A DNA stretch of 64,000 nt from Pseudooctadecabacter jejudonensis (GTDB lineage: Bacteria; Pseudomonadota; Alphaproteobacteria; Rhodobacterales; Rhodobacteraceae), in NCBI RefSeq assembly GCF_900172275.1, contig NZ_FWFT01000002.1:682001-746000 (forward strand), in the 5' to 3' direction. Numbering within the stretch: position 1 is the stretch's first letter; the number at the start of each line of letters is the position of its first letter. Shown here in pieces: positions 21,516 to 25,019 of the stretch. Under the pieces are notes generated by a model that was not told the DNA's origin, made no database searches, and saw nothing but the letters and a program-made list of their open reading frames with translations. The translations under genes were made by a program, and so were the position numbers.

Positions 21516-22973
21516 ATGACTTTGTCCCTCAAAAACCCCGCCCTTCTCCGCGAAGCTGCCCTTGTTGGGTCCCGTTGGATTGACGCGGACGGGGCGGGCA
21601 TTGCCGTCACCAATCCGGCGACGGGTGATGTGATCGGCCATGTGCCGGATCTTGGTGCAGATGAGACGCAAGAGGCCATTTCGGCGGCTGAGGTGGCGCA
21701 AAAAGACTGGGCCAAAAAGACAGCAAAGCAGCGGGCGGATGTGCTGCGCTGCTGGTTTGACCTGATGATGGCCAACCAAGAAGACTTGGCCCAGATCCTC
21801 ACGGCCGAACAGGGTAAGCCACTGGCAGAAGCCCGCGGTGAAATCGGCTATGGCGCGTCTTTTCTCGAATGGTTCGCAGAAGAGGCGCGTCGGGCTTACG
21901 GCGATGTCACACCGACCAACACACCGGACAAACGGATTGTGTGCATCAAGCAGCCCGTGGGCGTCACGGCAGCTATCACGCCATGGAACTTCCCCAACGC
22001 GATGATCACGCGCAAGGCGGCCCCTGCCTTTGCTGCGGGCTGTGCGATGGTGCTGAAGCCGTCCGAACTGACACCTTTTTCGGCTATCGCGATGGGCGTT
22101 TTGGCGGAAGAAGCCGGGCTGCCTGCGGGGCTGTTTTCGATTGTGACAGGTGATGCGGCGACCATCGGCGGCGTGATGACCGCCAGCCCTGTGGTCCGCA
22201 AGATCACCTTTACCGGCTCCACTCGTGTGGGCGCGATGCTGTATGAACAATCGGCCAAGACGATCAAGAAACTGGGGCTGGAGTTGGGCGGCAACGCGCC
22301 ATTTATCGTGTTCGATGACGCCGATCTGGATGCGGCTGTTGACGGTGCGATCCTGTCCAAGTTCCGCAACAACGGCCAGACCTGCGTTTGCGCCAACCGC
22401 ATTTATGTGCAGGCCGGCGTTTATGAGGCCTTTGCCGAAAAGCTGGCCGAAAAGGTCTCTGGCCTGAAGGTCGGCAATGGCGCTGAGGACGGCACTGTCT
22501 TTGGCCCGCTGATCAACGATGCGGCGGTGAAAAAGGTCTCTGGTCATATTCAAGACGCGACGTCCAAAGGGGCGCAGGTCGTGCTGGGTGGCAACGCGCA
22601 TGAGATGGGCGGGACATTTTATCAGCCAACCATTTTGACGGGCGTGACATCCGACATGGCCGTCGCGACCGAGGAAACCTTCGGCCCCGTCGCGCCGCTG
22701 TTCAAATTTACTGAAGAGGCCGAAGCGATTGAGGCGGCCAATGCCACGGAGTTCGGCCTTGCGTCCTACTTCTACAGCCGCGACATCGCGCGGGCCTGGC
22801 GCGTGTCGGAGGCGCTGGATTATGGCATGGTCGGCGTGAACACCGGCCACGTTTCCACGACGGAGGCGCCTTTTGGCGGGGTCAAGTCATCAGGGCTGGG
22901 CCGCGAGGGCGGGCGTCAGGGCCTCGATGATTTCATGGAAACGAAATACATCTGCATGGGCGGGATCGACTAA
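21516..22973 (+). CDS. gabD: NAD(P)-dependent succinate-semialdehyde dehydrogenase
   Basis: A 485-residue aldehyde dehydrogenase. TPWNFPNAM is the cofactor-binding start, FTGSTRVG the nucleotide loop, LELGGNAPF carries the catalytic Glu and NNGQTCVCANR the catalytic Cys (with a second Cys two residues on, common in GabD). Overall similarity and the KPSELTP and EAPFGGVKSSGLGREGG segments fit succinate-semialdehyde dehydrogenase, the last step of GABA use into the TCA cycle. AAAGG lies about 10 bases before the ATG. It is divergent from the liu regulator and its stop overlaps the stop of the following minus-strand gene by 4 bases. Confidence 0.9.
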   Translation: MTLSLKNPALLREAALVGSRWIDADGAGIAVTNPATGDVIGHVPDLGADETQEAISAAEVAQKDWAKKTAKQRADVLRCWFDLMMANQEDLAQILTAEQGKPLAEARGEIGYGASFLEWFAEEARRAYGDVTPTNTPDKRIVCIKQPVGVTAAITPWNFPNAMITRKAAPAFAAGCAMVLKPSELTPFSAIAMGVLAEEAGLPAGLFSIVTGDAATIGGVMTASPVVRKITFTGSTRVGAMLYEQSAKTIKKLGLELGGNAPFIVFDDADLDAAVDGAILSKFRNNGQTCVCANRIYVQAGVYEAFAEKLAEKVSGLKVGNGAEDGTVFGPLINDAAVKKVSGHIQDATSKGAQVVLGGNAHEMGGTFYQPTILTGVTSDMAVATEETFGPVAPLFKFTEEAEAIEAANATEFGLASYFYSRDIARAWRVSEALDYGMVGVNTGHVSTTEAPFGGVKSSGLGREGGRQGLDDFMETKYICMGGID

Positions 22974-23413
22974 ACCGTCTGATTAGCGTCAATCGCGTCA
23001 GGGGCGGGGGAGGGATCTTCCGCCTTTTGCACATCTTCGTCATCCTCCCACGCGTCTTTCATCAGGTCACGCGCGGATTGCTTGAGACGCACGTACGCCG
23101 ATTGGGCGCCCGGGATTGCACGGCTTTGATAGATTGGATCGACCGCAGCAGCGGTGCCCGCCACGGGGGAGGCAATGATATTGCGCCGCATCAGATCCTG
23201 CATAACTGCATCCGCTTGCGCGGGGCCGATGTTCAGCCATTTTTGAATGAGGGCGGGGGATGCTTTGGCGTGGGTGCGGGCAAAGAGGGCCGCCCAATCC
23301 AACGTGGCTTGTCGGATTGGGGCGGCAGCTACTGGGATAGCCGCTGCGGGCAAAGGCAAAACTGGGATGATCGCAGTTGCCCCGGCAGATCGGAGAAAGT
23401 CTCGTCTCTTCAT
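22970..23413 (-). CDS. Uncharacterised exported protein with Tat-like signal
   Basis: A 147-residue protein beginning MKRRDFLRSAGATA, a twin-arginine export motif followed by an Ala/Pro-rich hydrophobic stretch to about residue 31. The mature part has a helix-rich segment (about 35-75) and a Pro/Asp-rich acidic tail. I do not recognise a family. It is a lone minus-strand gene whose stop overlaps that of the convergent gabD. No ribosome site stands out beyond an AAGAGACG-type purine run. Confidence 0.65.
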   Translation of the reverse strand: MKRRDFLRSAGATAIIPVLPLPAAAIPVAAAPIRQATLDWAALFARTHAKASPALIQKWLNIGPAQADAVMQDLMRRNIIASPVAGTAAAVDPIYQSRAIPGAQSAYVRLKQSARDLMKDAWEDDEDVQKAEDPSPAPDAIDANQTV

Positions 23414-23480: not shown

Positions 23481-24185
23481 TCACACCATGCGAATAACGT
23501 CTTTATCGATGGCCAGCATATAGCCACGTCGGGCGATGTTGCGCACCAGCAGTTCAGAAATCATCTGGTTGCCCAAGGTGTCGCGCAGCCGTTTGATGCG
23601 GGTGGCGCCTGCGGCCTCTTCGCAATCGGCGGCGGACCGGCCCGAGATCACGCCCTCGATTTCGGCCCCTGACAGGACCTCATCGTCCATGCGGGCTTCT
23701 GCCAGCACGCTGAGGGTTTCAATGGCTGCATCTGTCAGTTTGAATTCAAAGTTGTTGAGGTAGACCATATTCTGGTCGCGGCTGATCAGAAGGGAATTGA
23801 CCTCAATCCCCTTGCGTTCGATCTGACCCATGCGCCGGTTCATCGCGATGAGCATCACAAGAAACGCGACTGCGGCGATCAAAAGCGCGGTCGCAAAAAC
23901 CAGGAGTACAAAGATCACAAACCGGTAGCTGTCCAAGGTCGCCGAAAAGGCGGTTCCGGATTGGGCGAGGATTTCCAGAAGTTTAATTTCAGCCTGACCG
24001 GTCAGCGACGCGTTTTCCACAAACAGCTGTTCCACCCGCGCGTTGAACGCGTTTGCGTCGGGGAGGTTCAAAAACAGCAATACCGCTGCGGTGCCAAGGA
24101 TCAGCACGATGGCGGCGATCCCTGCGATGACGATGCGGTTGCCGGTCTGGCGGGCCTCAATAGCGGAGGTAGTTTTCGCCTGCAC
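23481..24185 (-). CDS. Membrane-anchored winged-helix protein (candidate transcription regulator)
   Basis: A 234-residue protein with two membrane helices (about 18-40 and 88-115) around a periplasmic loop of about 45 residues. A basic cytoplasmic linker (MNRRMGQIERKG) follows, then a C-terminal domain (about 135-226) whose pattern matches an OmpR-type winged helix: strands MVYLNNFEFKLT, a helix with TLSVLAEA, a recognition-like helix TRIKRLRDTLGN and a wing hairpin ending ARRGYML. This is ToxR/CadC-like but with the DNA domain at the C terminus. The start is GTG at 24185, behind AGGAGAGAGA. It overlaps a small exported-protein gene by 29 bases. DNA binding is inferred only. Confidence 0.75.
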   Translation of the reverse strand: MQAKTTSAIEARQTGNRIVIAGIAAIVLILGTAAVLLFLNLPDANAFNARVEQLFVENASLTGQAEIKLLEILAQSGTAFSATLDSYRFVIFVLLVFATALLIAAVAFLVMLIAMNRRMGQIERKGIEVNSLLISRDQNMVYLNNFEFKLTDAAIETLSVLAEARMDDEVLSGAEIEGVISGRSAADCEEAAGATRIKRLRDTLGNQMISELLVRNIARRGYMLAIDKDVIRMV

Positions 24186-24438
24186 TCTCTTCTCTCTCCT
24201 CTAGTCCCGCCTCATCGAAGACGCTTTCGATGCTTAGCAACTGCCAGTCATCTTGCGCCAGTCGTGGGGCCAACTGGGCGGCGGCTGCGTCGACCGTACA
24301 GTCGCCTGTGATTTCGGCCACACCGTAGTGCAACCGCAACGGATCGTCACGTTTGGCTTTGTAGTCGGCAAAACACGCGGCATGCGCTGTGCTGGACACG
24401 GCCATCAACGTGACAGTTATTAGAAGAGTGCGTTTCAT
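24157..24438 (-). CDS. Small exported protein upstream of the membrane winged-helix gene
   Basis: A 93-residue protein with a clear signal peptide (1-20, ending STAHA-A). The mature part is about 73 residues with two cysteines (in ACFADY and GDCTVD) that could form one disulfide, and an acidic C terminus. The family is not recognised. The gene overlaps the start of the membrane winged-helix gene by 29 bases, so the products are probably made together; a periplasmic partner that senses for, or protects, the regulator is an attractive but unproven idea. Confidence 0.65.
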   Translation of the reverse strand: MKRTLLITVTLMAVSSTAHAACFADYKAKRDDPLRLHYGVAEITGDCTVDAAAAQLAPRLAQDDWQLLSIESVFDEAGLEEREESAGENYLRY

Positions 24439-24605
24439 GAGAGGAGCATGGCTGTGGTGCCCGTGTTATTCAATATCGTCGACCAACTTTCCTGTGCCAT
24501 CCCATAACATCTCCGCGCTATTGAGAGGCAAAGGGCCCTGCGCCCATCGTTGATCCAGTTCAGCCGACATGCCCGTCGGCGACCCACACACAAAGGATCA
24601 TCGAT

Positions 24606-25019
24606 ATGTTTACAAAAACACTGACGGCAGGCGTTCTGGCCGTATCCCTCGCCCTGACAAGCCTGTCCCCCACCCAAGCGCAGGCGTCCTTTTCCGAAGA
24701 AGACGCTGTGGTTGGCATTCTGACGCTGCTGTTGCTGGGGGCCGCCATTCACAACAGCCGCGACAATGGTAACGACCGCCCGCGGGTCGACCCCAATGCG
24801 TGGAAGGTGTTGCCCGATCAGTGCCTGCGTCAGACCACCCGTCGCAATGGCAATTCCATCCGGTTCTTCGGCCAGCGGTGCATGAACAACAATTACGCCT
24901 ATGTGTCCCGTCTTCCACAGGCGTGTCACGTCCGGTTCCGCAATGAAAACGGCCAACGTCGCCAAGGCTGGCGCGCGCGGTGCCTGCGCAACGAAGGGTT
25001 CCGCTTTAACCGGCACTAA
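24606..25019 (+). CDS. Secreted basic protein of unknown function
   Basis: A 137-residue protein with an N-terminal signal peptide (about 1-26, ending TQAQA) and a short hydrophobic stretch just after it (AVVGILTLLLLGAAIH, about 34-49). The mature C-terminal part is rich in Arg and Asn and has four cysteines (CLRQTTRRNG, QRCMNNNY, QACHVRF and RCLRNEG), suggesting a disulfide-stabilised basic domain. I do not recognise the family. It has its own terminator (25066-25108), so it is probably a single-gene unit, divergent from the membrane winged-helix pair. Confidence 0.72.
   Translation: MFTKTLTAGVLAVSLALTSLSPTQAQASFSEEDAVVGILTLLLLGAAIHNSRDNGNDRPRVDPNAWKVLPDQCLRQTTRRNGNSIRFFGQRCMNNNYAYVSRLPQACHVRFRNENGQRRQGWRARCLRNEGFRFNRH

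Follow-up and report, generated by a model that had tools for sequence, protein, structure and literature searches.

The overlapping genes p2 and p1 probably encode a ToxRS-like co-component envelope regulator that controls itself and surface genes. Binding of p1 to its sites, and sensing by p2, are inferred. The genes lie in a 64,000-nucleotide stretch of Pseudooctadecabacter jejudonensis DNA, the whole of which we refer to as the window (Table 1). Briefly, we propose that an N-terminal helical hairpin would hold p1 in the inner membrane, leaving its conserved acidic loop on the periplasmic side and its OmpR-type winged helix on the cytoplasmic side. Secreted to the periplasm, p2 would bind this loop and set p1 activity; its two invariant cysteines suggest that the signal may be an envelope or periplasmic-redox condition. 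From the membrane, p1 would bind helically phased GTTATNNNATAWC sites over -35 boxes. This binding would bring under p1 control the p2-p1 operon itself, s137 (a divergent gene whose product is exported) and a few exported or surface proteins that vary between lineages, namely curlins, lipoproteins and peptidoglycan-binding proteins. A bolder statement is that the pair represents an undescribed, Rhodobacteraceae-wide envelope-sensing system. Here, a membrane OmpR-type regulator of inverted topology, gated by a soluble disulfide-bearing periplasmic partner, would act from the membrane, through phased operators, directly on surface genes for curlin amyloid, lipoproteins and peptidoglycan-binding proteins. 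We consider the chances that this statement is correct to be even.

Few marine bacteria that colonise surfaces are more abundant than the Rhodobacteraceae, in most of which p1 is a highly conserved single-copy gene without a name. If our interpretation is true, p2-p1 links envelope to promoter in a single step, through a defined operator and with surface targets that can be tested. ToxRS-like logic would then also exist in a form in which the domain order is reversed and the partner is unrelated. To our knowledge, few membrane one-component regulators have both a clear operator and a predicted regulon. The pair could also be a convenient system in which to study how a regulator tethered to the membrane meets its DNA.

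Table 1. Positions in the window of p2-p1, the putative operator and s137.
Feature	Position	Strand	Description	Basis
p1	23481..24185	(-)	234 aa, GTG start; predicted membrane-anchored winged-helix protein	ORF
p1 membrane helix 1	24069..24137	(-)	residues about 17-39	hydropathy; helix in model
p1 periplasmic loop (predicted)	23922..24068	(-)	residues about 40-88; strongly conserved, net negative	alignment, charge count
p1 membrane helix 2	23841..23921	(-)	residues about 89-115, then RR(M)	hydropathy
p1 OmpR-type winged-helix domain	23502..23810	(-)	residues about 126-228	Pfam Trans_reg_C, hhalign, Foldseek
p1 putative recognition helix	23574..23618	(-)	residues 190-204; conserved G-[AV]-x-R-[IV]-K-R-L-R-D	alignment A1
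p1 putative wing	23514..23573	(-)	residues 205-224, ending RGYML; absent from AF2 model	PhoB/OmpR wing alignment
p2	24157..24438	(-)	93 aa, ATG start; exported, mature part predicted b-b-a-b-a	ORF; AF2
p2 signal sequence	24376..24438	(-)	about 21 aa	alignments A2, A4
p2 Cys22	24373-24375	(-)	invariant	alignments A2, A4
p2 Cys47	24298-24300	(-)	invariant	alignments A2, A4
p2 end / p1 start overlap	24157..24185	(-)	29 nt	ORF coordinates
operator copy C	24465..24477	(-)	GATATTGAATAAC; contains p2 -35 TTGAAT; present in 127 upstream regions	
operator copy B	24496..24508	(-)	GTTATGGGATGGC, consensus GTTATCNGATAAC; R1 match covers A+B	upstream-region comparison
operator copy A	24517..24529	(+)	GCTATTGAGAGGC; contains -35-like TTGAGA of divergent gene	
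p2 -10-like element	24445..24450	(-)	CATGCT, 17 bp from TTGAAT; ATG 6 nt later	
s137	24606..25019	(+)	small exported cysteine-containing protein, divergent, shares operator region	ORF; locus comparison

The initial annotation described proteins of 234 and 93 residues whose genes overlap by 29 bases, and both reading frames are as described. Such a pair is far beyond chance because p1 is conserved in 118 of 150 Rhodobacteraceae genomes and an overlap, of 29 or 23 nt, recurs in 66 of the 78 named loci with both genes. Each of the 118 genomes has a single p1 orthologue (54-96% identity). In a sample of the order, p1 was present in 180 of 197 genomes; a search of 237 genomes from other families of Alphaproteobacteria found no p1. 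Among the genomes searched, the pair is limited to one family, the Rhodobacteraceae. Named carriers include Octadecabacter, Yoonia, Loktanella, Ruegeria, Roseovarius, Shimia and one Phaeobacter strain. In two Parasedimentitalea species, p1 is on 92-111 kb replicons of the plasmid collection (NZ_CP033223.1 and NZ_CP127249.1). Neither p1 nor p2 matched a named protein family.

The common gene order is ccrM-rnhB-s137, divergent from p2-p1. No kinase gene adjoins p1, where the flanking genes are p2, s137, rnhB and ccrM. With its own conserved promoter, p2-p1 is an operon rather than a pair of mere neighbours, and the module takes in a third gene, s137. The s137 product is exported and fast-evolving. 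It has repeated C...C motifs (several at locus L291), no Pfam match, and relatives at L196, L273, L276, L283 and L291.

The two genes co-occur in exactly the same 118 of 150 family genomes, including those in which they are unlinked (G040, G041, G104 and G149; Fisher p = 2e-33, uncorrected for phylogeny). One criterion for a ToxRS-like system, a co-conserved small envelope partner gene, is met by p2 in 118 of 118 cases. Lack of conservation of the small exported gene would have refuted the initial annotation, but p2 adjoins p1 in relatives and accompanies it without exception. The description of p2 as secreted, with two cysteines, also holds. Its signal sequence is of the cleavable type, with no lipobox, and both cysteines are invariant in the 34 and the 63 homologues of two alignments. 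The AF2 model of p2 had a mean pLDDT of 87. Compared with the PDB, the model gave no match at E<=0.001, and neither ToxS nor VtrC was among the 50 matches listed.

Membrane regulators with a small envelope partner, encoded by overlapping or adjacent genes, are known from the co-component systems ToxR-ToxS, TcpP-TcpH and VtrA-VtrC (PMC10269533, PMC7496328). Unlike those partners, p2 is soluble and exported, not membrane-anchored. Its gene precedes that of the regulator and no sequence relation was found. A lipocalin-like fold is stated for many co-component partners (PMC10269533); p2 does not meet this criterion, at least as modelled. Hence, the ToxR/ToxS-like pairing first suggested for p2-p1 stands as an analogy, but does not extend to membrane anchoring, predicted fold or gene order.

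A ToxRS-like partner would also bind and stabilise its regulator; contact between p2 and p1, with p2 as the partner that reports to p1, is inferred. It is possible, if rather unlikely, that p2 is an unrelated periplasmic protein co-transcribed with p1 and not a sensor partner. Indeed, conservation is lower for p2 than for p1, and some genomes with p1 (G064, G143 and those with 79-aa forms) have a truncated or degenerate p2. An unrelated protein is, however, hard to reconcile with perfect co-occurrence in 118 genomes, also where the genes are unlinked. At the loci with shortened or diverged p2 (L044 and L045 in G064 and G143; L024 and L026 for the 79-aa forms), the C-terminal AGxFFLRY motif is missing, while p1 and the operator are kept.

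No target had been known for p1. A candidate has now been traced to the region between p2-p1 and s137, where we found three helically phased copies of GTTATNNNATAWC overlapping -35 boxes; that p1 binds them is inferred. Across 127 distinct loci, the 180 nt upstream of p2 contained 1.83 matches to GTTATNNNATAAC per sequence, compared with 0.046 in shuffled sequences. Copies A and B are 21 bp apart, and B and C are separated by 31-33 or 43 bp. Copy C is about 40 nt before the p2 ATG and provides TTGAAT, followed at 17 bp by a -10-like CAnnnT element. The p2 transcript is probably near-leaderless, the transcription start being inferred. In the other reading direction, copy A provides the -35-like TTGCCT of the divergent gene, with a CAnnnT element 17-18 bp further. 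Hence, the two promoters look alike. Each has one site over the -35 and a second site upstream, on the same face of the DNA, which is a familiar layout for OmpR-class proteins. The sign of regulation is inferred. The placing of sites at -35 and -54 suits an OmpR-class activator of s137-type promoters; the alternative is repression through occlusion of the -35.

Single 13-mer sites in the window genome were not in excess over the reversed pattern (18 versus 23). Such sites being uninformative, we used the A+B element for searches, as a sequence-only model of 42 columns (R1). In the window genome, the only clear R1 match was at the p2/s137 promoter (E 6.8e-4); other candidates there were weak. 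In the order sample, sites at E<=0.01 were found in 167 of 180 p1-positive genomes and in 0 of 17 p1-negative genomes. One p1-negative genome, G212, has no R1 site though its genus has p1-positive members. The absence of sites from p1-negative genomes is not fully independent evidence, because s137 and a further gene family, X, are missing there too. The rnhB locus of 29 p1-negative genomes contained neither an s137 homologue nor an operator. Where p1 is unlinked from p2 in G104, G149 and G041, no site precedes p1. Hence, the operator follows p2/s137 more than p1. In G263, where p1 is no longer next to p2, an operator again lies between p1 and a divergent exported gene.

These observations bear on whether p1 is the protein that binds the operator. 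The sites could instead belong to some other regulator that is inherited together with p1. In that case p2-p1 would be one target, and p1 would be an envelope protein using its winged helix for something other than DNA binding, such as protein binding. There are no binding data for p1 to counter this, and relocation of p1 in G104 and G149 has left the operator behind at p2/s137. Even so, we consider this explanation improbable: none of the 17 p1-negative genomes has sites at E<=0.01, and p1 is the sole regulator in the operon. Moreover, the invariant residues of p1 are concentrated in the putative recognition helix (R196, K198, R199, R201 and D202 among them; alignment A1), and invariance of the four basic residues is expected for one conserved DNA target.

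The envelope two-component system CenK-CenR of Rhodobacter sphaeroides also places envelope or exported proteins under OmpR-type control, in the same bacterial family. CenR differs in being a soluble response regulator that binds TGA-N8-TGA (PMC9275681), whereas the motif associated with p1 is GTTATNNNATAWC. The p2/s137 region lacks the TGA-N8-TGA direct repeat that would place its promoters in the CenR regulon, and CenR was rejected as owner of the operator sites since the motifs differ. We also discarded extra matches upstream of formate-dehydrogenase genes (L200-L202, one from a p1-negative genome), where the palindrome is different. This palindrome, resembling CAATATC-N8-GTTATTTGATA...TATCAAAT, recurs upstream of the fdsG-like genes at L200, L201 and L202, one of which has a divergent LysR-type gene, and is probably the site of a separate regulator. 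Elsewhere in the window genome, G000:C10:571369 and G000:C5:985677 (L151 and L154) contain perfect or near-perfect GATATGTTATAACATAAC-type palindromes, which we take to resemble Zur boxes rather than the p1-type operator.

If p1 owns the operator, as we favour, secondary sites point to further targets. Most precede genes for exported proteins. These encode curlins (L253, L264, L267, L277), a peptidoglycan-binding exported family (L252, L256, L271, L278, L284, L285, L289) and exported peptides of 46-65 aa (L250, L269, L270). There are two related surface lipoproteins (L257, L261), a further lipoprotein (L286), and other lipoproteins at L251 (OmpA), L259, L279 (DUF2799) and L290. The remainder are an exported 223/233-aa protein (L249, L276), a LolA-like protein identified by eye (L260) and s137 relatives (L196, L262). 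Pfam confirmed the curlin repeats, PG_binding_1, the OmpA lipoprotein and DUF2799. An exported ORF lay within 200 bp of 22 of the 37 secondary sites, compared with 12% of positions taken at random and 15% of those upstream of genes (p = 9e-10). This test used crude automatic signal-sequence rules, for the control fraction too, and the sites are not phylogenetically independent. With the exception of a dodecin gene (genus g152), the target is on the A side of the site in nearly all cases, in the same orientation and with the same promoter layout. The six family X genes, from 42 p1-positive genomes, all have a site. No orthologues of family X exist in p1-negative genomes, so their upstream regions cannot be compared.

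Targets other than p2/s137 differ from genus to genus, and only the p2/s137 promoter scores well in the window genome, where copy C covers the p2 -35. Thus, p1 might be dedicated to autoregulation, with p2/s137 as essentially its only target promoter region, and secondary sites might mostly reflect lineage-specific recruitment of little importance. We give this little credence. About 57 of the 180 p1-positive genomes have at least two matches at E<=0.01, though some may be one palindrome read on both strands. Furthermore, secondary sites converge on exported proteins with a shared orientation and promoter layout.

Seven secondary sites in genus g152 are at or near the dodecin gene, whose product is not exported; dodecin is a cytoplasmic flavin-binding protein. 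The operator is upstream of this gene or adjoins it (L255, L282, L292-L295), and dodecin is the only recurrent non-exported target. In the window genome, a single site matching at 9 of 10 positions lies upstream of a glycine-zipper lipoprotein gene (L163; G000:C7:174336). The lipoprotein resembles the OmpA-lipoprotein target of G003 (L251) and is a candidate second target.

Hydropathy identified two membrane helices near the p1 N terminus, as first annotated. In the homologues examined, the intervening loop has a net negative charge, and the charge beyond helix 2 is mostly net positive. These charges predict a cytoplasmic C terminus, with the positive flanks on the same side. For the C-terminal domain, Pfam Trans_reg_C matched the window p1 weakly (17.7 bits, E 0.0039, profile positions 4-77 of 77), below the gathering cut-off of 26.2 bits. 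The same profile matched 38 of 38 members of p1 alignment A1 (best E 3.3e-7). Using hhalign, 23 p1 C-termini (A8) aligned with ten E. coli domains (A7; PhoB, OmpR, PhoP, CreB, ArcA, KdpE, CusR, CpxR, RstA and CadC) over 100 of 115 columns (E 7.8e-8, probability 94.5). Full-length p1 gave E 1.1e-6 to OmpR-family domains. A family-wide search with p1 matched one further protein (E 5.3e-5, 26% identity), a genuine response regulator with a receiver, a winged helix and an adjoining kinase gene.

The AF2 model of p1 was poor (mean pLDDT 59.8), with the wing not built; the 81 homologues, at 81% mean column identity, offer too little diversity. We used the model for secondary structure and a Foldseek comparison only. 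Each of the best 50 Foldseek matches was an OmpR-family regulator or the DNA-binding domain of one, the lowest E being about 0.03. That the domain is not a winged helix at all is scarcely credible: the single-sequence Pfam score and the unbuilt wing leave room for it, but the pairwise response-regulator match, Trans_reg_C, Foldseek and hhalign agree. Judged by these comparisons, the p1 C-terminal domain is homologous to the OmpR-type winged helix over its whole length, including helix 3 and the wing; DNA binding is inferred, the conserved operator at its own operon being indirect evidence only. The residues first quoted as the basis of this assignment, TRIKRLRDTLGN and ARRGYML, are present, at positions that match helix 3 and the wing of OmpR-type domains in the alignment. 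Absence of the fold would have refuted the initial annotation; neither the profiles nor the fold comparison of the weak model did so.

In the broad sense, p1 is a transmembrane transcription regulator, since one polypeptide contains a membrane helix and a DNA-binding domain, although localisation is predicted. Like regulators of the ToxR/CadC type (PMC10269533), p1 combines a cytoplasmic OmpR-type winged helix with an envelope-facing part and lacks a receiver domain, none being detected by Pfam. Conversely, its DNA-binding domain is C-terminal where theirs is N-terminal, the reversed layout noted in the initial annotation. In addition, p1 has two helices and a periplasmic loop of about 49 residues, whereas they have one helix and a large periplasmic C-terminal domain. 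We place p1/p2 outside the ToxR family because of the reversed domain order, the two transmembrane helices and a partner that is not a lipocalin in the model. In the open-access papers available to us, a weak negative, we found nothing specific on the gene pair, the motif or the inverted layout. The OmpR/PhoB response regulators share with p1 a homologous C-terminal DNA-binding domain and tandem sites overlapping the -35 box. However, p1 has a membrane hairpin in place of the receiver and no cognate kinase gene beside it, and so is not a two-component response regulator. Just downstream of p1, a 147-aa protein (22970-23413, minus strand) has a Tat-type signal and a weak match to FtsK-gamma, itself a winged-helix domain, and a homologue also follows p1 in several close relatives.
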